From: an uncultured bacterium
GTDB lineage: Bacteria > Pseudomonadota > Alphaproteobacteria > Rhodospirillales > Rhodospirillaceae
Reading direction: 5' to 3'
Assembly (NCBI GenBank): GCA_903888485.1
Contig: CAISTS010000055.1
Span: 1 to 64,000 of the forward strand
DNA: 64,000 nucleotides
The position numbers were made by a program, and so were the translations under genes. Below, in pieces: positions 19,871-59,563 of this stretch (positions are counted from its first letter, which is position 1; each line of letters starts with the position of its first letter). Below the pieces are notes generated by a model. That model had not been told where the DNA came from, ran no database searches, and saw nothing but the letters and a program-made list of their open reading frames with translations.

Positions 19871-21801
19871 TCCACCGGCAACTTTGCATCCAGAATCGCG
19901 CCCAGACGGTCCGGCGTGCCTTCGATGCGTTCCAGCTTGGCATAGCGCAGCCCGTCGAAGTAATCGAAGCGCACGGTGCGGTAGTTATCGCCCGTCTTCA
20001 GCAGGAGTTCGATCGGGGTCTTAGTCTTCTTGGCATCGGTGATCGCCGTTTTGATGCGGTCGCCGGTGTAGGCGACGTTGTTCACCGCGATCACCTGCGC
20101 TCCCGGGGTCAGGCCTTGTTTGAAGGCTAGGCCCTCCCACAGCACATCGGTGATACGGCCCTCGCGGCCGATGGTCATGCCGAGGGAGTAGGTCATACCC
20201 ACCGAGCCGTTGTCGGACTCGATGTCTTTGGTCCACGTCGAGGGTTTTTCGTCAAACACCAGCTTGTAGCCACCGCGCGGAAAGCCATCGAGCGGCGCGT
20301 TGGTGGTGGTGCTTTCCACACGCTCCTTGAGGAACGCGGCCCAGTCGTGGGGCTGCACGGCGTTCAGCGCCGCGACCACGTCGTCGAAGGTATAGGTCGC
20401 AGGCACGTGACTGCCGTTGTTCACGCCAAAGAAAGCGCCGGCGAAATCGTCCAGCGATTTCTTGCCGCCCGACTTCTCGCGGATCAAGGTGTCGGCGTCG
20501 AGCCAGATGAGCTGGCCTTCCTGATAGTAATCCTCGCTGCGCTGCCAGCTGCGCCAAGGCAGGCTGCGGCGCGCGGCGACAATCGGATCGTTGGTGGTGT
20601 CGGCCAGCGGCTTCCACTGCCGCCCGATACGGTGATCGTAGGCTGCTCCCGTCGCGGCGAAAGCCTCCAGTACTTGTTCCTTGCTCATCAGCCCTGCACG
20701 CGCCGCCAGCACATAGCCCCAATACTGCGTCTGACCTTCGTAGACCCACAGCAGACTATCGCGCATGGGCGTCGCGAAGGTCGGCGTCCACAGGTCCGCG
20801 GGCCGGCGGAACTTGCCGTTCCATGAGTGCGCATATTCGTGCGGCAGCAGGTCGCGCCCGAAGTATTTCTTGTCCCACTCGGTGAAGTACTCGGCATCGG
20901 TGCCGTTCTCGCTCGATTGATGATGCTCGAGCCCGATGCCGCCCATGCGATCGGTGAGCGCCAGCAGGAAATCGTAGTGGCCGAAGTGGTGGCTTTTGAA
21001 CAGGGCCTCGGCCTCGCGCACGAGATTCCTGTGGGCGTCCTCATGCTCGGGTTTGGACTCGAGCAGCTCAGGTTTATCGGCCACGATATTTAGGCGCACC
21101 GGCGCGCCGCCGGTGGTGCCGAGCTCGACACGCTTGAAGTGTTTTCCGGCGAAGATCGGTGAGTCCGCCAGTTCCTCGAAGCTGGTGGTCTTGAACGTCG
21201 TCGTATTGCCTTCGGTTCTGGCGGTCTCCAGCGCCGTGGCCACTTGCCAGCCGTCCGGCATCTTGACGCTGGCCTCGACCGGAATCTGGCGGGTGAAGTA
21301 ACCGGCGGGATACAGCGCCACCGACACCCACTGCAGATTCATCATCTCCTGGGTGATGAGCACGCGGCCCTGATTGCCTTCGAGCGCGGTGAGGAATTGG
21401 AACTCGATCTCGAGCGCGCTCACGCCCGCCGGAACGTCGATGTGAAAGGCATAGACATCCACGGGATCTCGCCGCCACGACAGGCGCGCGCCATTGCCCT
21501 TGATCGTCAGGCCCGCCAACGCTTCGATGCGCCCCGAGGGCGAGTGGCTGCCCGGCAGCCATTTGGGATACAGCAGCGTTGCGGTCTTCCCGCCTTCCAC
21601 CGGAATGGTTTCGCGCACCTGGAAGATGCGGCGCGTGATGTCGGTGGCGTCCACATCGACGCGGAGCGTGCCTGGATACGCCACATCTTGAGGCGTTGCG
21701 ATCGCCGCCGGCATCGGCAACGGCATCGGCGGTGAGGCGGCATGAACGGCGCCAGCGAGAATCAACGCGGCGCATGCAAGGCTGAGTTTTGCGAGGCTCA
21801 T
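19825..21801 (-). CDS. M61 (glycyl aminopeptidase-like) peptidase with PDZ domain, secreted
   Basis: A 658-residue peptidase. The signal peptide is SLACAALILAGAVHA. The N-terminal beta domain (RRIFQVRETIPVEGG) leads to the zinc motif HEYAHSW (His321, Glu322, His325). A C-terminal PDZ-like part carries GMTIGREGRITDVLWEGLAFKQGLTPGAQVIAVN. I start at 21801 (MSLAKLSL) because a G-rich ribosome site (GGGGGGAAATTTC) precedes it and the signal peptide follows at once; the frame is open to 21888. It faces the TPR/GT41 gene head to head, leaving about 67 bp for both promoters. Confidence 0.9.
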   Translation of the reverse strand: MSLAKLSLACAALILAGAVHAASPPMPLPMPAAIATPQDVAYPGTLRVDVDATDITRRIFQVRETIPVEGGKTATLLYPKWLPGSHSPSGRIEALAGLTIKGNGARLSWRRDPVDVYAFHIDVPAGVSALEIEFQFLTALEGNQGRVLITQEMMNLQWVSVALYPAGYFTRQIPVEASVKMPDGWQVATALETARTEGNTTTFKTTSFEELADSPIFAGKHFKRVELGTTGGAPVRLNIVADKPELLESKPEHEDAHRNLVREAEALFKSHHFGHYDFLLALTDRMGGIGLEHHQSSENGTDAEYFTEWDKKYFGRDLLPHEYAHSWNGKFRRPADLWTPTFATPMRDSLLWVYEGQTQYWGYVLAARAGLMSKEQVLEAFAATGAAYDHRIGRQWKPLADTTNDPIVAARRSLPWRSWQRSEDYYQEGQLIWLDADTLIREKSGGKKSLDDFAGAFFGVNNGSHVPATYTFDDVVAALNAVQPHDWAAFLKERVESTTTNAPLDGFPRGGYKLVFDEKPSTWTKDIESDNGSVGMTYSLGMTIGREGRITDVLWEGLAFKQGLTPGAQVIAVNNVAYTGDRIKTAITDAKKTKTPIELLLKTGDNYRTVRFDYFDGLRYAKLERIEGTPDRLGAILDAKLPVDQRAKRARSKPNKAR

Positions 21802-21868
21802 GAAATTTCCCCCCTGGCATATTAGAAGCCACATTCCCCGGCGCGGGCAACATGTTATAGCTGGCGGC

Positions 21869-23731
21869 ATGGAACCCGACTTCAGCAAAGCGCCGCCGCC
21901 GCGCCCTGAATCCTATTTCAATGCCGTGCCCGCCTTATTCAATGCGGCGCTAGCCCTTGCGGAAGCCGGCGATCATGCGGGGGCCATAGCGGGTTATAGG
22001 CGGTGTCTCGCCCTTGAGCCGGCGAACGCCGCAGCCCAGAACAACCTGGCTGTCAGTCTCCGCGCGGTGAGGGACTTCGCCGGGGCATTGACCGCCAGCG
22101 AGGCCGCCGTGGCGCTGGCGCCGGATAACCCTGATTTTCACAATACCCGCGCTGCGATTCTGATGGATCTTGGTCACCTTACCGAAGGCCTTGTGGCGGC
22201 CGAACGCGCCGTCGCACTCAGACCCGATCTCATCGACGCGCATCTCAGCCGTGGCGCGCTCCTCGAAAGGCTTGACCGTTTGCCGGAGGCCCTGGCCGCC
22301 TATGAACGCGCCACTGCGATCAGCCCTGCCTTTGCCGAAGGGCACCGCGCGCGAGGCGTGCTGCTGGGCCGTCTCAATCAATTCCCCGCCGCCGTCGCCG
22401 CCTTCGACCGGGCGCTCAAGCTTCAGCCAGGTCTTCCGCAAGTGCACGGCACGCGGCTGCATTACAAGATGCAGACCTGCGATTGGAACGGCATTGACGC
22501 TGACATCGGCGATCTGTGCCGGCGTGTGCGCCAGGGGGAGCCCGCCACGGCGGCCTTTCCCTTGCTGGCCACGGTTGACGACCCTGAAATTCACCGGGCC
22601 GCGGCGGCGCTGTGGGCCGCGCGCCGACCCGTCGATACCTTGGGAGAATACCCGCCCGCGCGTCGGCCGCGCGCGAATATCCGCATCGGCTATTTCTCGT
22701 CCGACTTCCGCGATCACCCCGTTGCGACGCTGACGGCGCGCCTGTTCGAGATCCACGACCGCGCGCGTTTCGAGATCATCGGCTTCTCCACCGGGCCCGA
22801 CACCGGCGATCCCATGCGCAAACGCCTGGAAAAGGCTTTCGACCGTTTCGTCGACGTGCGCACGAAAACTGACCGCGAGATCGCGGTGCTTGCGCGCGAG
22901 CTGGGGATAGATATCGCCGTCGATCTCGCCGGCCACACGGGTGCGGGCCGCACCGGCATCTTCGCGCTGCGTGCCGCCCCGGTGCAGATCAACTGGCTGG
23001 GCTATCCCGGCACAATGGCCGCCGACTATATGGATTATATCATCGCCGATCCGGTCATCATCGGTGAGGCCGACCTGCGCTACTACGCGGAAAAGCCCAT
23101 TCTTCTTCCGTGTTTCCAGCCGACCGATCCGACACGCCCTCTCCCGGGGCCGCCCCCGCCGCGCGCGAGCCTCGGTCTGCCCGCGGAAGGTTTCGTTTTT
23201 TGCTGCCTCAACGGCGCTTACAAAATCACCGCCGAGGTATTTGCCGTCTGGATGCGCATTTTGGGGCGTGTGCCGAAGAGCGTGCTTTGGCTGCGCGGCA
23301 ATAACGCCGACATGCAGGCCAACTTGCGCCGCATGGCGGGCGCCCTTGGCGTCGACCCGGCGCGTCTCATTTTTGCGGGGCAGGTCTCGGCGGCCGATCA
23401 CATGGCGCGCACGGGCGCAGCCGACCTGTTCCTCGACACCACGCCCTACAACGCGCACACCACCGCGAGCGATGCGCTGTGGTCGGGGCTGCCGATTCTC
23501 ACCACGTCCGGGAAATCGTATGCGGCGCGCGTCACGGCGAGTCTGCTCAAAGCGGTAGGGTTGCCGCTGGTGGCGGACTCGCTTGAGCAATACGAAGAGA
23601 TGGCGGTTGCACTTGCGGCCGATCCCGCACGCATCGCCGCGTTCAAGAAACAGCTCAAGGACCCGGCGCGCTTGCCGCTTTTCGATATCGCCGCTTTTGC
23701 GCGCGGGCTCGAGGAGGCGTACGGGCGCGTC

Positions 23732-23743
<12 letters not shown>
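21869..23743 (+). CDS. TPR-repeat protein with GT41 (OGT/SPINDLY-like) glycosyltransferase domain
   Basis: A 624-residue cytoplasmic protein. Residues about 20-200 are tetratricopeptide repeats (FNAALALAEAGDHAGAIAGYRRCLALEPANAAAQNNLA and similar units). From about 265 the GT41 domain follows: RIGYFSSDFRDHPVATL, DIAVDLAGHTGAGRTGIFALRAAPVQINWLGYPGTM, FCCLNGAYKITAEVF, and ADLFLDTTPYNAHTTASDALWSGLPILT. In other bacteria such proteins glycosylate proteins such as flagellins or adhesins. No flagellin is in view. The ATG at 21869 is preferred because an upstream ATG at 21800 lies inside the divergent gene's leader. Confidence 0.88.
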
Positions 23744-45821: not shown

Positions 45822-46394
45822 ATGTCGAAAGAATTCCAGGAGATGCTTCTGCAGCAGCTTCCGCGTATGCGCGGTTTCGCTCTGGGGATGACGCGCAGTC
45901 CCGCCGATGCCGACGACCTTGTGCAGATCGCCGCGGAGCGCATTTTAAAATACGAATCCTACTTCAAGGTCGGATCCAACTTTCGCGCGTGGTCTTACCG
46001 CATCATGAAAAATAGCCACATCAGCATGTGCCGTGCGCGCATCCGGCGCCCGGTTTCCATAGACCAGTTTGCCGATGTCGCCAGCCCACCGACGTCGCTG
46101 GTGTCCAGCCCGCTTCAAGAGGATCACGTGTATTCGCGCGAAGTGGTGCGCGCCATGGATAAGCTGAATGCGCCTTTGCGGGAAGTTCTCATGGTGGTTT
46201 GCGGCGCCCAGATCCCCTATGAGGAAGCGGCAGTCCTGCTCGCTTGCTCCGTCGAGACCGTGAAAAGCCGCCTGCATCGTGCGCGCGCGCAGATGAAGAG
46301 CCTGCTGCTCGACATTGTCCCGCGCGAATTCAGCGCCGTCCAGGCGCCGCGCAGCAGCGCTGCGTCGCTTGAGGCAGAGGTCCTCGCCTGCTGA
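45822..46394 (+). CDS. ECF-type RNA polymerase sigma factor
   Basis: A 190-residue sigma factor. Region 2 is RMRGFALGMTRSPADADDLVQIAAERILKYE with FRAWSYRIMKNSHIS; region 4 is LNAPLREVLMVVCGAQIPYEEAAVLLACSVETVKSRLHRARAQMKSLL, a clear DNA-binding helix. No anti-sigma gene is adjacent, and no PhyR/NepR pair is visible in the window, so I do not call it EcfG. A truncated glycosyltransferase abuts its stop on the opposite strand, which marks a rearrangement point. Confidence 0.9.
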   Translation: MSKEFQEMLLQQLPRMRGFALGMTRSPADADDLVQIAAERILKYESYFKVGSNFRAWSYRIMKNSHISMCRARIRRPVSIDQFADVASPPTSLVSSPLQEDHVYSREVVRAMDKLNAPLREVLMVVCGAQIPYEEAAVLLACSVETVKSRLHRARAQMKSLLLDIVPREFSAVQAPRSSAASLEAEVLAC

Positions 46395-46763
46395 TGCCGA
46401 TCTTCGTCGATCCGCCGTGCCAACGCCATCGTGCAGAGCATCGGCGGCTATATCGACCGCTGCCTCTGAGATCACGATATCCGCATCCAGCCAGATGATG
46501 CGCTCGTAGCGTGCGGCCCACGGCTGCTCGAGGATGAGGAGCTTTTGCCACGCGGGCGATCTCGCGCGGCTGGTTTCGGACTTATCGAGGAAGTCCGCGA
46601 TGACGAAGAGGTCGTAGCCATGAATATCGGCGTAGCTGCGCCAGTTCGCCTCGCACAGCGTCTTCCATATTTTCAGGTATTCTGCGCCGATGATGACAGT
46701 GACGATGGCATTCTTGGCGCATGGGTTCTGCTCCCAAGTGCGCTCATGAGCGTCAAACAGCAC
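46395..46763 (-). pseudogene. Truncated GMA12/MNN10-like glycosyltransferase
   Basis: The leftward frame from a possible GTG at 46763 reads AIVTVIIGAEYLKIW, ANWRSYADIHGYDLFVIADFLD, SPAWQKLLIL and RYERIIWLDADIVIS, including the donor-binding DxD. This is the N-terminal half of a galactosyltransferase-type GT (GMA12/MNN10). Similarity stops near 46395-46430, where the ECF sigma gene begins, and the frame runs into antisense of that gene. The acceptor half is missing, so it is a remnant. Confidence 0.7.
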
Positions 46764-46928
46764 GGTGCCCCCGGAAACGTCCCCGCGATGGCTGATTATG
46801 TCGCGCGCCGCGGGAGGGCGATAGGCCTCCGGCGGGCACCCCTTGCCGGGCCCGCCCGGTAAATTTTGCCTTAACGGCGCCGGCGGCCGGGACGTCCCGT
46901 GCGACTTCCTTTGAAAGGCCCGGTAAAT

Positions 46929-46943
46929 ACTGATTAAATCAGT
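46929..46943. promoter_or_regulatory. Palindrome just upstream of the sigma-54 promoter
   Basis: ACTGATT-A-AATCAGT is a perfect 15-bp palindrome ending eight bases before the -24 element at 46952. It is too close for a usual enhancer and could bind a repressor or bending protein. Confidence 0.4.
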
Positions 46944-46951
46944 GTTAAAGC

Positions 46952-46968
46952 TTGGCACGTTTTTTGCT
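46952..46968 (+). promoter_or_regulatory. Sigma-54 promoter of the octapeptide-repeat gene
   Basis: TTGGCACG-TTTT-TTGCT matches the -24/-12 consensus almost perfectly, with GG (46954-46955) and GC (46966-46967) ten bases apart. The expected start of transcription near 46979 excludes the upstream in-frame codon at 46952 as translation start. Confidence 0.85.
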
Positions 46969-47047
46969 GATCTGCCCTTGCAGATTGGTCCGATCTCGAT
47001 CCCCAAGCCCGGTTGTCATGGGGACCCGAGATATTTGGAGTGCGTGT

Positions 47048-50000
47048 GTGGTGTCTTCGGTTGCCGGACTGAGTGTCGCGCAGATCGCCGGTCTTTCCCG
47101 GACGGCCATCGAAGGACTGACGGCGAACGACATCGCCGGTCTAGCGACCACGCAGATTGTCGCCTTCACCGTCGAGCAGATCGAAGCCTTCAGCGGCACG
47201 CAGCTTCAGGCGCTTTCGCCCAAGCAGATGCGCAGCCTGACGCCCGAGCAGATCGCGGCTCTGCAGCCCGGGCAGATCAGCTTCACCTCCGTCCAGCTCT
47301 CGGTGCTGCTGGCGGCGCAGATCGAGGCCTTTGGCGTCGACGACATCGCCATTCTGTCGACGCAGCAAATCAAGGGTTTGACCGCCGCCGAGCTCTCGGC
47401 CTTGACCCCGGCGCAACTGGCGGTGCTTTCGCCGACGCAGCTGGGCGCGCTCACGATCAGCCAGGTTCAGGGTCTGAGCGCGACGACGCTGGGTGCGCTC
47501 ACCACGGCGCAGATGACGGGGTTCAGCACAACGCAGATTTCCGCACTCTCGCCCATGCAGGTCAGGGCGCTTACATCCACCCAGGTCTCATCGTTTTCGG
47601 CGAGCCAATTCGGCGCATTGACCGCGGCCCAGATCGCGGCGTTGACCGCCTCCGATATCGCGGCGCTGACGCTGGACCAGGTGGCCGGACTGAACGCTAC
47701 GCAAATCAAAAGTCTGTCGGGAACCGAGCTCGCGGCCTTCAGCACCACGCAATTCGCAGTCCTCTCATCGGATCAAATCGCAACGCTGACCGGCGCCCAA
47801 GTGAGGGGCCTCAGCGCCGCGCGTCTCGGCGATCTCAGCCGCGCACAGTTCGAGGCCCTCACCGCAACGCAGCTCGCGGTGCTGGCAAGCTCGCACGCGA
47901 CAGCACTGACCGCAGGCGAGATGGCCGACCTCACGACGCTGGAGGTCCGCGCTTTGGCCAGCTCGGTCATCGCCGCGCTCAGCAGTACGCAAATCGCGGC
48001 CCTGAACCAGACGCAAGTGGCGGCCTTGAACGCCGGCCAGATCAAGGCACTCACGGCCAGCGGCCTCGCCGCGCTGATCCCCGGCCAACTGGATGCGCTG
48101 AGCTCTCTGCAAGTCGCGGCGCTGACCACGGGCCAGATCAAGCTGCTGCCAGGCAGTTGGGTCGCGGCGTTGAACGACACGCAGCTCGCCGCACTCACGT
48201 CGAGCCAGCTTGCCGGGTTGACGGCGGCGAATGTGCAGGCGTTAGGAGCGGGACAAATCTCGGCGCTGACCGTCAGCCAGCTCAAAGGATTGACTGCGAC
48301 CGGCATAACCGCCCTGACCTTGACGCAAGTGGCGGCTTTGGGGACGGCGCAGTTAAGTGCGCTGACGGCCGCGCAAGTCAGGGCGCTCACGACAACCGCC
48401 GTCAGCACGCTGGGCACATCGCACGTGAAGGCGCTGACCGCCACGCAAATCGCGAGCCTGACGAGCCAACAGCTGCGAAGCCTGACCCTCGAGCAGGTGT
48501 CGGCGCTGAGCACGACCCAGGTCAAGGCCATCACCGCGACGTCGGTGGGCACGCTCACGGCCGAGCAGATTGCAAGCTTGAGCGCGGCGCAAATCGTAAA
48601 CTTAAGTTCGGTGCAAATTGCCGGCCTCACCGGCGCGTCGGTCGCCGCCTTGTCGTCCACGCAACTCGCCGCCCTGGGCACACGCCAGATCGCCGCATTC
48701 CTGATGCCGCAAATCCGCGGCCTGACCGATAGTCAGATCGCCGCGCTCAATACGACGCAAATGGCGGCCTTGAGCGCCGCGCAAATCGCCGCTTTCACCA
48801 GCACGCAGATTGACGCGTTGACGCCCGCGCAGCTGCAGAATCTTTCAGCCACGCAGATCAAGGGCCTGACGACGGCCGCGCTCGCGGCGCTCGAAGCCAG
48901 CCAGCTCGCCTCGATCTCGGCGACGCAAATCGCCGGCCTGAACACGGTTCAAATCCGGGCGCTGACGCCTGACAGCGTGGCGGCATTGACGACGGAACAG
49001 CTGCAGGCGCTGCAGCCCATCCAGGTTCAGTCACTACTCGCGCCGCAAATCGCGGCCCTGACCACGTCGCAGATCGAGAACCTGACGGTCCCGCAGATAC
49101 GCGCCCTCGGCCCGGGTGCAGTGTCGGTGCTCGCGGCGACACAGATCGGCGCACTGTCCGGGACGCAGATCGCCGCGATTACCGCAACGCAGATTGCCGG
49201 GCTCCTATCTTCCGGTGTGGAGGCCCTGGCGCCCGAACAAATCGATCTGCTTTCGTCCAGCCAAATCGGCGCGCTTACCACGTCCGCCCTTGCCGGCCTG
49301 ACGAGTGAACAGGTCGCTCGCCTCAGTGTTCCGCAAATCGGTGCGCTGGGCTCAAGCGGCCTAGCGGCGCTCACGGCTACACAGTTCGGCGCTCTGACGT
49401 CGGCGCAGATCGCCGCTCTGAACGCGACGCAGATCAGATACCTGTCCAACGCGCAGATCGGCGTGTTGATGTTCAATCAGTTCGACGCCCTGACGGACGG
49501 CCAGCTCGCGGCGCTCACCGCCGGACAGATCGCCGGTTTGACGCAGACGCAACTGGCCACGCTGACGCCGGGTCAGATTGGTGCCCTGGCGCCCGCCGCG
49601 ATCGGCGGCATGAGCGCAACCGATCTTACCGCGCTCAGCGCGGCACAAATTGAAGCGCTCCGTCCGGCTCAGGTCGGCGCGCTGGCGACGTCGGCGATCA
49701 TGGGTCTGACGGCGGACCAGCTGACGGCGCTCACCCTGACTCAGCTTTCGGCGTTGACGTCGTTCCAGCTTGCGGCGCTGTCGACAGCGCAGATCGCCGA
49801 GCTCACGGCCACGCAGCTTGGCGCTCTCAACGCCGCACAGATCAAAGGTCTTAACGCTGCGGCTTTGGACTCAACGCAGCTTGCGGCGCTCCGCACCTCA
49901 CAGCTCGCGGCCCTTGCCACGGGCGCCATTGCCGCCTGGACCGCCACGCAGGTCGAGGGCCTTGCGTCCACGCAGCTCGCCGCCCTGACCGCCGCGCAAA

Positions 50001-51565
50001 TCGGCGCTTTGTCGACATCCGGACTAGACGGTCTGTCCTCCACCGCGCTCGCCGCGTTAAGCACCGCGCAGCTGGCCGGCTTGACGGCGACGGCGCTCAA
50101 TACATTTGACGCCGCCCAAGTTGGCGCGCTGTCACCGACCCAGATCGCCAATCTTTCGAGCACCCAGATCAAGGGACTCGATTCCACCAGCATCGGCCGC
50201 CTTACGCCTGCGCAGGCGGCGGCGCTTACGACGACCCAGATCAATGCCCTTTCGGCGGCTGGCGTTGGCGGTCTGACGGATACGCAGCTCGCCGGCCTAA
50301 ATACCACGCAGTTCGGCGCGCTGACGGCCACGGGCCTTGCCGGGTTGACCGCCAGCCAGGTTGCACAACTGTCCGCGGACCGGTTCGCAGCGCTTTCAGC
50401 GACGCAGATCACCGGACTTTCCACGACCGCGATCGTCGGCCTGTCCAGCGCGCAGATTCAAGCCCTCAATGGCACGCAGCTCGGCGCATTGACGGGTGCG
50501 CAACTGGGCGCGCTGAGCACGACGCAATTCGACGCGTTATCTCCGGCACAGATGGCGGCTCTCTCGACCTCGCAACTCAAAGGACTGAATGCGTCCAGCA
50601 TCGCCGCTCTTACGGCCACGCAGATCGCGGGACTGAAAACAACGCAAGTCGCGGCGCTGGCGGCTACCGCCGTCGGCGGCTTGAGCGCGGAGCAAGTGGC
50701 GGCGCTCGCGGCGACGCAGCTCGCCGTGCTCAGCGCCAGCCAAATCGGCGCGCTGTCGGCGACCGGCCTCGATGGTTTGCGTGCGACCGATCTTGCCGCC
50801 ATGAGCGCGGCGCAGATCGCGGGGCTGACGGCCCCCGGCGTCGCATCGCTGGACACGGCGCAAGTGGCGGCCCTCTCGACCACGCAGATCGGCGCGCTCA
50901 CGAGCGCGGCCTTTGGCGGGCTGACGGCGGACCAGCTCGGGGCATTGTCGGCCACGCAGTTCGGCGGCCTGACGGCGGCGCAGCTCGCCAGCATCTCGTC
51001 CGCCGGCATCGCCGGGCTGACCGATCAGCAGCTCGGGGGTCTCAGCGGCACGAAATTCAATGCGCTCAGCACCACCCAACTGGCCGCGATCTCGCCCGCG
51101 GCTATGAGCGGGTTGACAACAACCGCCATCGCCGCGCTTTCGGCGACACAGCTCGGTGCGCTCGAGCGTATGCAGCTGCGTGCGTTGACTATGGCTCAGC
51201 TCGGCGCCCTCTCGCCGGGGCAAGTCGGCGCGCTGACGCCCACACAAATTTCGAACCTGACGATCACCGAGATCGCGGCGCTGAATACGGCGCAGTTCGC
51301 GGCCCTCAGCGCATCGCATATCTCGGCGCTCACGGTCACGCAGGTCCAGAACCTGACGACGACCGAGATCGGCGCGCTGTCGATGAGCCAGTTGGGCGGC
51401 CTGTCCACCACGCAGCTGGGGGGCCTGACGTCCACGGCGATCGGCGCCCTGACGCCGTCGCAGATCGAGGCCCTGCTGCCGGTTCAGATCGGCGGCTTCA
51501 CCGAAACGCAGCTCGCGTCCATGACCCCGGCGCAGCGCACTGCCATCGAGACGGCGCTGTCCTAG
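47048..51565 (+). CDS. Giant octapeptide-repeat protein, sigma-54-controlled
   Basis: About 1,505 residues made almost wholly of some 185 tandem octapeptides of consensus x-A/G-L-T/S-x-x-Q-I/L/V, for example AALTTAQI and GALSTTQF. I found only two slips of phase: a 7-residue unit near residue 75 and a shortened unit around KGLNAAALDSTQL. There is no signal peptide, membrane segment or other domain; Cys and His are almost absent. Thr/Ser at position 4 and Gln at position 7 could form an N-cap box, favouring a chain of short helices, but a beta-solenoid is possible too. GTG at 47048 has GGAG seven bases upstream; ATG at 47018 would add ten residues. Family and function are unknown to me. Confidence 0.85.
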   Translation: MVSSVAGLSVAQIAGLSRTAIEGLTANDIAGLATTQIVAFTVEQIEAFSGTQLQALSPKQMRSLTPEQIAALQPGQISFTSVQLSVLLAAQIEAFGVDDIAILSTQQIKGLTAAELSALTPAQLAVLSPTQLGALTISQVQGLSATTLGALTTAQMTGFSTTQISALSPMQVRALTSTQVSSFSASQFGALTAAQIAALTASDIAALTLDQVAGLNATQIKSLSGTELAAFSTTQFAVLSSDQIATLTGAQVRGLSAARLGDLSRAQFEALTATQLAVLASSHATALTAGEMADLTTLEVRALASSVIAALSSTQIAALNQTQVAALNAGQIKALTASGLAALIPGQLDALSSLQVAALTTGQIKLLPGSWVAALNDTQLAALTSSQLAGLTAANVQALGAGQISALTVSQLKGLTATGITALTLTQVAALGTAQLSALTAAQVRALTTTAVSTLGTSHVKALTATQIASLTSQQLRSLTLEQVSALSTTQVKAITATSVGTLTAEQIASLSAAQIVNLSSVQIAGLTGASVAALSSTQLAALGTRQIAAFLMPQIRGLTDSQIAALNTTQMAALSAAQIAAFTSTQIDALTPAQLQNLSATQIKGLTTAALAALEASQLASISATQIAGLNTVQIRALTPDSVAALTTEQLQALQPIQVQSLLAPQIAALTTSQIENLTVPQIRALGPGAVSVLAATQIGALSGTQIAAITATQIAGLLSSGVEALAPEQIDLLSSSQIGALTTSALAGLTSEQVARLSVPQIGALGSSGLAALTATQFGALTSAQIAALNATQIRYLSNAQIGVLMFNQFDALTDGQLAALTAGQIAGLTQTQLATLTPGQIGALAPAAIGGMSATDLTALSAAQIEALRPAQVGALATSAIMGLTADQLTALTLTQLSALTSFQLAALSTAQIAELTATQLGALNAAQIKGLNAAALDSTQLAALRTSQLAALATGAIAAWTATQVEGLASTQLAALTAAQIGALSTSGLDGLSSTALAALSTAQLAGLTATALNTFDAAQVGALSPTQIANLSSTQIKGLDSTSIGRLTPAQAAALTTTQINALSAAGVGGLTDTQLAGLNTTQFGALTATGLAGLTASQVAQLSADRFAALSATQITGLSTTAIVGLSSAQIQALNGTQLGALTGAQLGALSTTQFDALSPAQMAALSTSQLKGLNASSIAALTATQIAGLKTTQVAALAATAVGGLSAEQVAALAATQLAVLSASQIGALSATGLDGLRATDLAAMSAAQIAGLTAPGVASLDTAQVAALSTTQIGALTSAAFGGLTADQLGALSATQFGGLTAAQLASISSAGIAGLTDQQLGGLSGTKFNALSTTQLAAISPAAMSGLTTTAIAALSATQLGALERMQLRALTMAQLGALSPGQVGALTPTQISNLTITEIAALNTAQFAALSASHISALTVTQVQNLTTTEIGALSMSQLGGLSTTQLGGLTSTAIGALTPSQIEALLPVQIGGFTETQLASMTPAQRTAIETALS
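47057..51550 (+). repeat. 24-bp-period coding repeat array
   Basis: The octapeptide gene repeats with a 24-base period over about 4.5 kb. Units vary in nucleotide sequence while keeping the protein pattern, so the array is old and under selection rather than freshly expanded. It is not a CRISPR array: no constant repeat with unique spacers. Confidence 0.85.
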
Positions 51566-51572
51566 CGGATTT

Positions 51573-51588
51573 TTGGGCATCAGCCCAA
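51573..51588 (+). other. Hairpin after the octapeptide-repeat gene
   Basis: TTGGGC-ATCA-GCCCAA, a perfect 6-bp stem eight bases after the stop. Confidence 0.4.
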
Positions 51589-51619
51589 GGCGCGGTCACG
51601 TTAAACCCTTGTTTTGACT

Positions 51620-51646
51620 AAACCGCAGGTCATGTGCCGGTTTTTT
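51620..51646 (+). terminator. Rho-independent terminator of the octapeptide-repeat gene
   Basis: AAACCG-CA and TG-CCGGTTT pair with one bulge and are followed by TTTTTT (51641-51646). This separates the repeat gene from the next gene at 51688. Confidence 0.75.
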
Positions 51647-51687
51647 CATTTGTCGCGTAAGGCGAACCTCGGGGAAGATCGACGCCC

Positions 51688-53022
51688 ATGCCGTTTCCTC
51701 ATCCCGTCCTACGCGTCGCCGCGTTCATTGCCGTGCTTGCCGGCGGATCGCCGAAGGCGGCCGAACAACTTTCCGCTGAATTAACGGGCGCTTTGGATGC
51801 GATTGCCGACACCGGCGGGGGCAGTGTTGCCGAAGCGCAAGCGATGTCCCGCGCCATTGCCGTGGTGCGCCCGATGAAATCGCCGCCAACCGTCGCGGAC
51901 AGCGCCCGCAACGACGCCGCGCGCGGCGATGCACTGGGCGAGCGCGCAAAGACGCTGGCGGATTTCGCGCGCGCCGCGACCGAGTTCGCCCGCGCCGTGC
52001 GTGTCGCGCCCTGGGTGGCGGAGTACCACTACCAACACGGTCGCATGCTGGTGAAGGCCGGGCGGCCCTTGGAGGCGGTGCGCGCCTTTGTGCTCTATCT
52101 CGAAGCCGCGCCGCGCGCGAGCGACCGCGCCGAAGTAACCCGGCTCGTGGCCGCCTTGCGCGCAGCCGCGCCCGCTTCAGAAACGCCTGCCGCTGTGCTC
52201 CCGGCGGGCCATGTCTTCCGTGACTGCCCCGATTGCCCCGACATGGTCGCGATTCCCGCCGGGCGGTTCAGGATGGGGAGCCCCTCGTCAGAGCAAGGAC
52301 GCTTCGACGCCGAGGGGCCGCAGCGCATGGTGACCGTGCGGCCCTTTGCGCTCAGTGTCCTCAACGTCACCGGGGAGCAGTTCTCGCGATTTCTCGCCGA
52401 GACCGGATACCAGCCCGCGCCCTGCAATCCGCTGCTGGACAAAAGTTGGCGCTCGCCCGGTAGCGGGCTCGTCTATCCGCCCGGTTCGGCTGACTTGCCG
52501 CCGCAGCCGGCGGTCTGCATCAACTGGCACGACGTCCAGGCGTACATCGACTGGCTCAATCTGCACATCGCCCGCTTCACGCCGGAATTGAAGATCGTCT
52601 ATCGGCTGCCCAGCGAAGCCGAATGGGAATATGCCGCGCGGGCGGGGACGACCACCAGCCGGTGGTGGGGCGAGGAGGTCGGCGTCGGCAAAGCCAACTG
52701 TCAGGGCTGCGGTAGCGCGTGGGACAACACTTTGATCGCGCCGGGCGGTAGCTTCGGCCCCAATCCCTTTGGACTCTTCGACGTGCTCGGCAATGTCTGG
52801 CAGTGGACCGCCGACTGCTGGAATGAAAGTTATGCCGGCGCGCCCAGCGACGGCGGTGCGTGGCTGGCAGGCGACTGCAGCAAGCGCGTCCTGCGCGGCG
52901 GCTCCTGGAGCAACTTGCCGAAATTTGTGCGCTCGGCCACACGCAGCAAGGCCGATGCCGGCGGCGCCGACTTCGATTTTTCCGGCTACGCCGGCTTTCG
53001 CGTCGCGCGATCGCTGGAGTGA
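51688..53022 (+). CDS. Secreted FGE-sulfatase-fold protein lacking catalytic cysteines
   Basis: A 444-residue protein with a signal peptide (VAAFIAVLAGGSPKAA), a TPR-like helical part (about 85-160: AEYHYQHGRMLVKAGRPLEAVRAFVLYLE) and a C-terminal SUMF1/FGE domain: MVAIPAGRFRMGS, VTGEQFSRFLAETGYQ, RLPSEAEWEYAARAG, NPFGLFDVLGNVWQW, and RVLRGGSWSNLPKFVRSATR. Formylglycine-generating enzymes have two Cys shortly after GGS; here that segment is SNLPKFV, so it cannot make formylglycine in the known way. Such domains often bind ligands or modify targets in the periplasm. No sulfatase is nearby. Confidence 0.88.
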   Translation: MPFPHPVLRVAAFIAVLAGGSPKAAEQLSAELTGALDAIADTGGGSVAEAQAMSRAIAVVRPMKSPPTVADSARNDAARGDALGERAKTLADFARAATEFARAVRVAPWVAEYHYQHGRMLVKAGRPLEAVRAFVLYLEAAPRASDRAEVTRLVAALRAAAPASETPAAVLPAGHVFRDCPDCPDMVAIPAGRFRMGSPSSEQGRFDAEGPQRMVTVRPFALSVLNVTGEQFSRFLAETGYQPAPCNPLLDKSWRSPGSGLVYPPGSADLPPQPAVCINWHDVQAYIDWLNLHIARFTPELKIVYRLPSEAEWEYAARAGTTTSRWWGEEVGVGKANCQGCGSAWDNTLIAPGGSFGPNPFGLFDVLGNVWQWTADCWNESYAGAPSDGGAWLAGDCSKRVLRGGSWSNLPKFVRSATRSKADAGGADFDFSGYAGFRVARSLE

Positions 53023-59546: not shown

Positions 59547-59563
59547 TTGGCACATACTTTGCT
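59547..59563 (+). promoter_or_regulatory. Sigma-54-like promoter upstream of kdsD
   Basis: TTGGCAC-ATACT-TTGCT has GG (59549-59550) and GC (59561-59562) ten bases apart and matches the -24/-12 consensus except at one or two positions. Transcription would start near 59574, ahead of kdsD. Confidence 0.6.

Follow-up and report, generated by a model that had tools for sequence, protein, structure and literature searches.

In Caulobacter, as described in PMC3930126, the activator FlbD works at ftr sites, one of which, ftr4, is located upstream of fliF, and PMC7591256 describes FlmG, a TPR glycosyltransferase, as modifying flagellins in the cytoplasm of the same bacterium. For the ALTTAQ repeat, catalogued in Pfam as PF20080, our literature search returned no paper under that name, under the accession or under HeliScrew, and ALTTTQ did not occur in the papers listed, subscription papers being mostly outside the scope of the search. 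Here we analyze a gene composed of such repeats in a 64,000-nucleotide stretch of DNA (hereafter the window; positions 1 to 64,000 of contig CAISTS010000055.1, assembly GCA_903888485.1) from an uncultured bacterium of the Rhodospirillaceae.

The window contains an open frame at 46952-51565. GTG at 47048 is the most likely start because the VVSS encoded here aligns with the MVSS starts of orthologues, and GGAG at 47037-47040 (plus strand) reads as a likely ribosome-binding site. The resulting gene (47048-51565, plus strand) encodes a protein of 1505 residues built from about 185-188 octads, in agreement with the first-pass annotation, which had described a single gene of about 185 octapeptide repeats. 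Its further claim that the repeats belong to no known family was wrong: a profile search matched the array to PF20080 with an E-value of 5e-203 and 656.9 bits against a curated cut-off of 26.4, across 58 stretches, and because of this match the gene product falls in a named repeat family without a given role. In all, the Pfam scan returned four families at an E-value of 1 or better, none of them flagellar (FlgE, FliD and flagellin domains were not matched), while a search of NCBIfam gave no match. Hits to CAAP1, EndoS LRR and SAM_3 in Pfam, and to LRR chains in the PDB, were set aside as presumed overlaps of the leucine-rich low-complexity pattern. As first reported, neither an export signal nor a second domain was seen in the translation or the Pfam scan. 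Successive leucines stand eight residues apart in 117 of 190 pairs. The octad register slips twice: near residue 85, within the conserved N-terminal part (residues 1-140; 47048-47467, plus strand), and near residue 935 (49850-49885, plus strand). A second conserved part, defined by C-terminal alignment of orthologues, spans the last approximately 60 residues (51383-51562, plus strand). The protein contains no cysteine, 13% threonine and 10% serine. The proposed terminator of the gene is weak, with three terminator-like sites in the region versus a shuffle mean of 4.2 and a fold z-score of -1.1 for 51600-51650, 3' of the gene. The downstream gene (51688-53022) has an FGE-sulfatase domain, weak TPR matches and, by eye, a signal peptide-like start. 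On the minus strand, a frame at 46395-47006 with a weak match to Glyco_transf_34 (E 0.006, under the curated cut-off) runs into a sigma-70-like gene at 45822-46394 and is perhaps a remnant.

Structure prediction of consecutive units supports the earlier guess of a solenoid. When 320 residues were modelled without an alignment, AlphaFold gave most octads a single helix some five residues long (pLDDT 80), and it predicted the same arrangement of one short helix per octad for the first 200 residues modelled with 28 sequences (pLDDT 91.8, pTM 0.79). Over-confidence of AlphaFold on perfect repeats is described for beta-solenoids (PMC11795689); the octads modelled here are diverged rather than perfect, and the second model drew on the 28 sequences. 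Searching the PDB with Foldseek gave mesothelin as the first match for both models, with TM-scores of 0.23 and 0.32, and the best VIA-align Z-scores were 8.1 (beta-catenin) and 5.9 (designed solenoids). The likeness to armadillo proteins and mesothelin was therefore kept as a fold class only; at these scores it probably reflects no more than a common arrangement. A viral structure library yielded weak matches only. The solenoid is also supported by PDB sequence 9zem (HeliScrew4), whose 120-residue chain has the same octad (E 5e-15 and 3e-16); HeliScrew4 appears from its name to be a designed protein, and 9zem was absent among the Foldseek matches listed.

The closest orthologue found, at locus L071, has an identical length and is 71% identical without gaps, with a dN of 0.199 and a dS of 1.177. 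This comparison confirmed the earlier view that the array is under selection, and indicates that, between these two genes, purifying selection keeps the array with no units gained or lost. Across wider distances, orthologous frames range from about 1,500 to 4,209 residues. An orthologous group with conserved ends (group A) is found in Magnetospirillum-type alphaproteobacteria: the conserved N-terminal part occurs in records named Magnetospirillum, Paramagnetospirillum, Telmatospirillum and Phaeospirillum, as well as in other Rhodospirillaceae and Rhodospirillales and in some Caulobacteraceae and Hyphomonadaceae. Five close orthologues (L071, L072, L075, L077 and L084) come from metagenome-assembled genome records titled Candidatus Marinimicrobia, titles that may be wrong. 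PF20080 is carried by 18 of 199 genomes in a sample of the order and by 6 of 385 in a sample of the class, and Caulobacter vibrioides was the sole carrier among 14 control genomes. Co-occurrence with FlgE_D2 was not discriminating, as this domain was matched in 17 of the 18 carriers versus 152 of the 181 other genomes of the order. The window's own genome has further ALTTAQ genes elsewhere, one of them encoding 4332 residues on contig C88. At that locus (G000:C88:29678-42676; L009 and L010) a second frame of 616 residues lies immediately upstream of the 4332-residue ALTTAQ frame, and no pair of sigma-54 site and palindrome, of the kind described below, stands before them.

The near-perfect -24/-12 promoter that had been proposed for the gene is present. 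Its elements, TTGGCACGTTTTTTGCT at 46952-46968 (plus strand), score 15.5, and no other site on either strand of the window reaches 15. Among 31 orthologues (30 named loci and the window), 19 have a -24/-12 score of at least 13 within 270 bp upstream, compared to a shuffle mean of 0.98 and a maximum of 3 in 60 runs that ignore kinship, L089/L091 and L082/L087 looking closely related. An alignment of ten promoters has six invariant columns, which are the GG and TGC of the -24/-12 elements plus one T. This conservation strongly supports sigma-54 control of the repeat gene, as the first-pass annotation had proposed. Genome-wide, the strict pattern YTGGCAYRNNNNTTGCW matches seven times versus once for a reversed-pattern control. 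Of the seven sites, one lies before FlgE and another before a stretch containing a gene that is FliG-like by eye; the others precede PspA-, KpsF- and AmtB-side genes (by eye) and one gene without an assigned name. Within the window, a strict sigma-54 site at 59547-59563 stands directly before a gene that resembles KpsF/GutQ by eye, upstream of rpoN, and rpoN itself lies directly past the window's end (C55:64075-64554).

Upstream of this promoter, the initial reading was correct in part. The palindrome it had placed beside the promoter, ACTGATTAAATCAGT at 46929-46943, is real, but no match to it was found at L071, the nearest orthologue. The reading missed a probable enhancer palindrome that also stands before flagellar genes. 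Most group members have a palindrome upstream of the sigma-54 site, CCGGCAAnnnTTGCCGG at best. Before the window gene we find two candidate FlbD (ftr-like) enhancers on the plus strand, each with nine of the ten core letters: GGTAAATTTTGCC at 46858-46870, 95 bp upstream of the -24 element, and GGCACCCCTTGCC at 46835-46847, 118 bp upstream. The palindrome was counted in the 22 of 31 members with a sigma-54 score of at least 12.5. This revealed GGCARNNNYTGCC with 9-10 of its 10 letters in 19 members (shuffle mean 0.81, maximum 4, 200 runs) and a complete ten-letter core in 13 (mean 0.03, maximum 1, 200 runs), with the best sites 73-119 bp upstream of the sigma-54 site. The pair of palindrome and sigma-54 site lies further up in L078 and L092, is missing from the 700 bp searched upstream in 7 of the 31 orthologues, and was found before none of nine paralogous ALTTAQ genes (C88a, C88b and C79 from the window's genome, the others from relatives).

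Since one and the same set of promoters served both to discover the palindrome and to count it, independent sites matter. Over five whole genomes the palindrome was not commoner than a reversed control. From the 40 sites in these genomes, 16 were fetched, chosen by eye and mostly with AT-rich centres, and seven of these had a sigma-54 site in the correct order. The genes behind the seven pairs are one FlgE, two FliD, one EF-hand protein, two small orphans and one gene without a Pfam match, with recognised flagellar genes accounting for three of the seven (FlgE in genome G102, FliD in G102 and G146). Small, similar-looking proteins of 85-89 residues are encoded behind the same pair in two relatives (L195 and L201). 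The pair, with the same palindrome and spacing as at the repeat gene, also precedes the window genome's own FlgE on contig C45 (L211), a locus fetched on account of its sigma-54 site. A palindrome without a sigma-54 site precedes fliF in G087 (by Pfam) and in G146 (by eye), and the fliF region of the window's genome has a degenerate palindrome only. The same genome encodes an FlbD-like activator in an apparent flagellar gene cluster. Taken together, these comparisons suggest that the upstream palindrome is probably an FlbD (ftr) enhancer, and we infer that FlbD is the protein that binds it. Of the new points in this analysis, the one we hold most firmly is that the gene belongs to the late flagellar regulon, and we consider it very probable from the promoter sequences that the repeat gene is under late-flagellar control by FlbD and sigma-54.

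The initial reading had also missed a GT41 glycosyltransferase gene beside many relatives. Among complete group-A loci in the sample of the order, a GT41-type gene is next, 12-38 bp downstream, in six of ten; Pfam assignment covers three of these six, and the stretch at L065 holds only the first 84 residues of its GT41 protein. Of the members with room downstream, the window gene and L071, L072, L075 and L094 have no GT41 gene next downstream. In genome G083, the ALTTAQ, GT41 and FlgE genes lie on one strand with gaps of 12 and 13 bp. When every ALTTAQ frame with room downstream is considered, a GT41 gene follows directly in 19 of 57 rows, a count in which window/L013 and L068/L115 duplicate the same genes and which excludes the partial GT41 of L065 and a short ALTTAQ end in L012; at L112 and L139, GT41 is upstream rather than downstream. 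The rows with GT41 next span Magnetospirillum-type genomes, Rhizobium, Hyphomicrobium, Caulobacteraceae and one betaproteobacterium, Noviherbaspirillum. Of the 23 linked GT41 proteins, 22 group together in a single clade (support 100/100) that leaves out ten other GT41 proteins encoded by the window's genome; the sole linked protein outside it is that of Noviherbaspirillum. The window's genome has a large number of GT41 genes (39 matched stretches, about 20 genes when counted by place), and its member of the linked clade is on contig C80, beside another ALTTAQ gene. A further TPR-GT41 gene at 21800-23743 of the window is outside the linked clade. At distant ALTTAQ loci, where 87 of 156 listed neighbour frames were scanned, the matches listed (25 of 109) include at least four GT41, at least four UDP-galactopyranose mutase and at least two MCP neighbours. 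Two loci from Agrobacterium and one from Rhizobium have a UDP-galactopyranose mutase gene beside GT41 and ALTTAQ, a hint as to the sugar used there. By analogy with FlmG, we lean towards O-glycosylation of the family by the linked GT41 clade; for the product of the window gene, modification in trans from another contig is possible and is less likely than for the family as a whole.

In 93 ALTTAQ frames, some of them counted twice through overlapping loci, there are 22 cysteines in 200,183 residues, and acidic residues outnumber basic ones in 89. As read from the sequences, such a composition suits exported fibrous proteins, although it is partly the result of growth by repeats. With regard to the roles first suggested, a cytoplasmic scaffold, a binding protein or an exported fibre, the near absence of cysteine and the GT41 link favour an exported glycoprotein. 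We propose that the repeat gene is part of the late flagellar hierarchy, in which completion of the basal body would allow FlbD to bind the upstream palindrome and activate the sigma-54 RNA polymerase at 46952. The gene would encode a giant, acidic protein, free of cysteine, in which each octad adds one short helix to a stack and both ends are conserved. Across many of the relatives, a dedicated TPR-GT41 enzyme in the cytoplasm would O-glycosylate its many threonines and serines, as FlmG does with flagellin in Caulobacter, while in the window's genome this enzyme would need to act from another contig. We hypothesize that the protein leaves the cell without a signal peptide, most simply via the flagellar export gate, and would then serve the flagellum or the swimming cell as a coat, sheath or tether made of glycoprotein. 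A protein so large would be unusual cargo for the flagellar gate, and we count this against the proposal. Our belief is evenly divided on its core, namely that a late-flagellar, cysteine-free, acidic helical solenoid is O-glycosylated in the cytoplasm and leaves the cell together with the flagellum or onto it. That the protein sits on the flagellum is a tentative suggestion, doubted somewhat more than it is believed. The most detailed version, in which FlbD and sigma-54 time a giant solenoid glycoprotein, a co-evolving GT41 clade O-glycosylates it, and export without a signal through the flagellar gate lets it coat or tether the length of the flagellum in Magnetospirillum-type bacteria, is more speculative again, and we think it rather unlikely to hold in every part.

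The same promoter evidence would also fit a surface adhesin, or a coat around the cell body, that shares only its timing with the flagellum, as part of a swimmer-cell programme, and leaves by another route. Related genes have a GT41 neighbour in Rhizobium and Hyphomicrobium loci, which are distant matches; no flagellar family is found among the matches listed (25 of 109) beside distant ALTTAQ genes; and genome G188 has an ALTTAQ gene with no FlgE match. A surface protein of this kind is harder to reconcile with the lack of a visible signal peptide or second domain in the window protein, and with the close-spaced ALTTAQ, GT41 and FlgE genes on the same strand in G083, and we judge it unlikely. 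A long, armadillo-like helical solenoid, as predicted, could also act as a scaffold, cytoplasmic or polar, on which the flagellum is assembled, offering a long binding surface and not being exported, in keeping with the lack of a seen export signal and with the cytoplasmic location of both FlbD and the TPR-GT41 enzymes. The scarcity of cysteine across the family and the dedicated GT41 clade better suit exported glycoproteins, making a scaffold improbable.

Sigma-54 control could instead be exerted through another activator, such as NtrC in response to nitrogen, and be unrelated to flagella. Judged by eye from position and sequence, the genome encodes activators resembling NtrC, NtrX and PspF in addition to the FlbD-like one, and one of its strict sigma-54 sites lies before an outer-membrane gene that has an AmtB-like gene behind it. 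No such palindrome was seen by eye before this AmtB-side site, however, whereas the genome's own hook-gene promoter shares both palindrome and spacing with the repeat gene, so that control by NtrC or the like is very improbable. Our choice is to rank a flagellum-associated coat or tether first, a swimmer-cell surface protein second and a cytoplasmic scaffold third. With this analysis, a repeat family known here by its Pfam name alone gains a testable role, comprising a late flagellar FlbD/sigma-54 regulon, a likely modifying enzyme from one GT41 clade, and a fold. If the preferred coat or tether is correct, some flagella bear a giant glycoprotein that current inventories of flagellar parts omit, and one of the bacterial GT41 enzymes gains a natural substrate with many regularly spaced threonines and serines.

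The whole array of the window matches the ALTTAQ repeat of PF20080, a name that gives no function and to which the present analysis adds control, GT41 neighbours and conserved ends. With HeliScrew4 (PDB 9zem), compared by sequence only, the window protein has the octad in common, and with the mesothelin and armadillo solenoids the predicted repeat protein would have in common a superhelix of short helices. As described in PMC7591256, FlmG of Caulobacter combines TPRs and a glycosyltransferase and acts on signal-less flagellar proteins in the cytoplasm before their export; its substrate is flagellin, and the GT41 clade is likened to it here by analogy rather than by sequence comparison. Unlike the products of the late flagellar genes of Caulobacter, such as the hook protein and flagellins, that of the window gene is no known axial protein, and its FlbD site is a candidate; like those genes, which are controlled by FlbD and sigma-54, the window gene has a sigma-54 site with a palindrome upstream.
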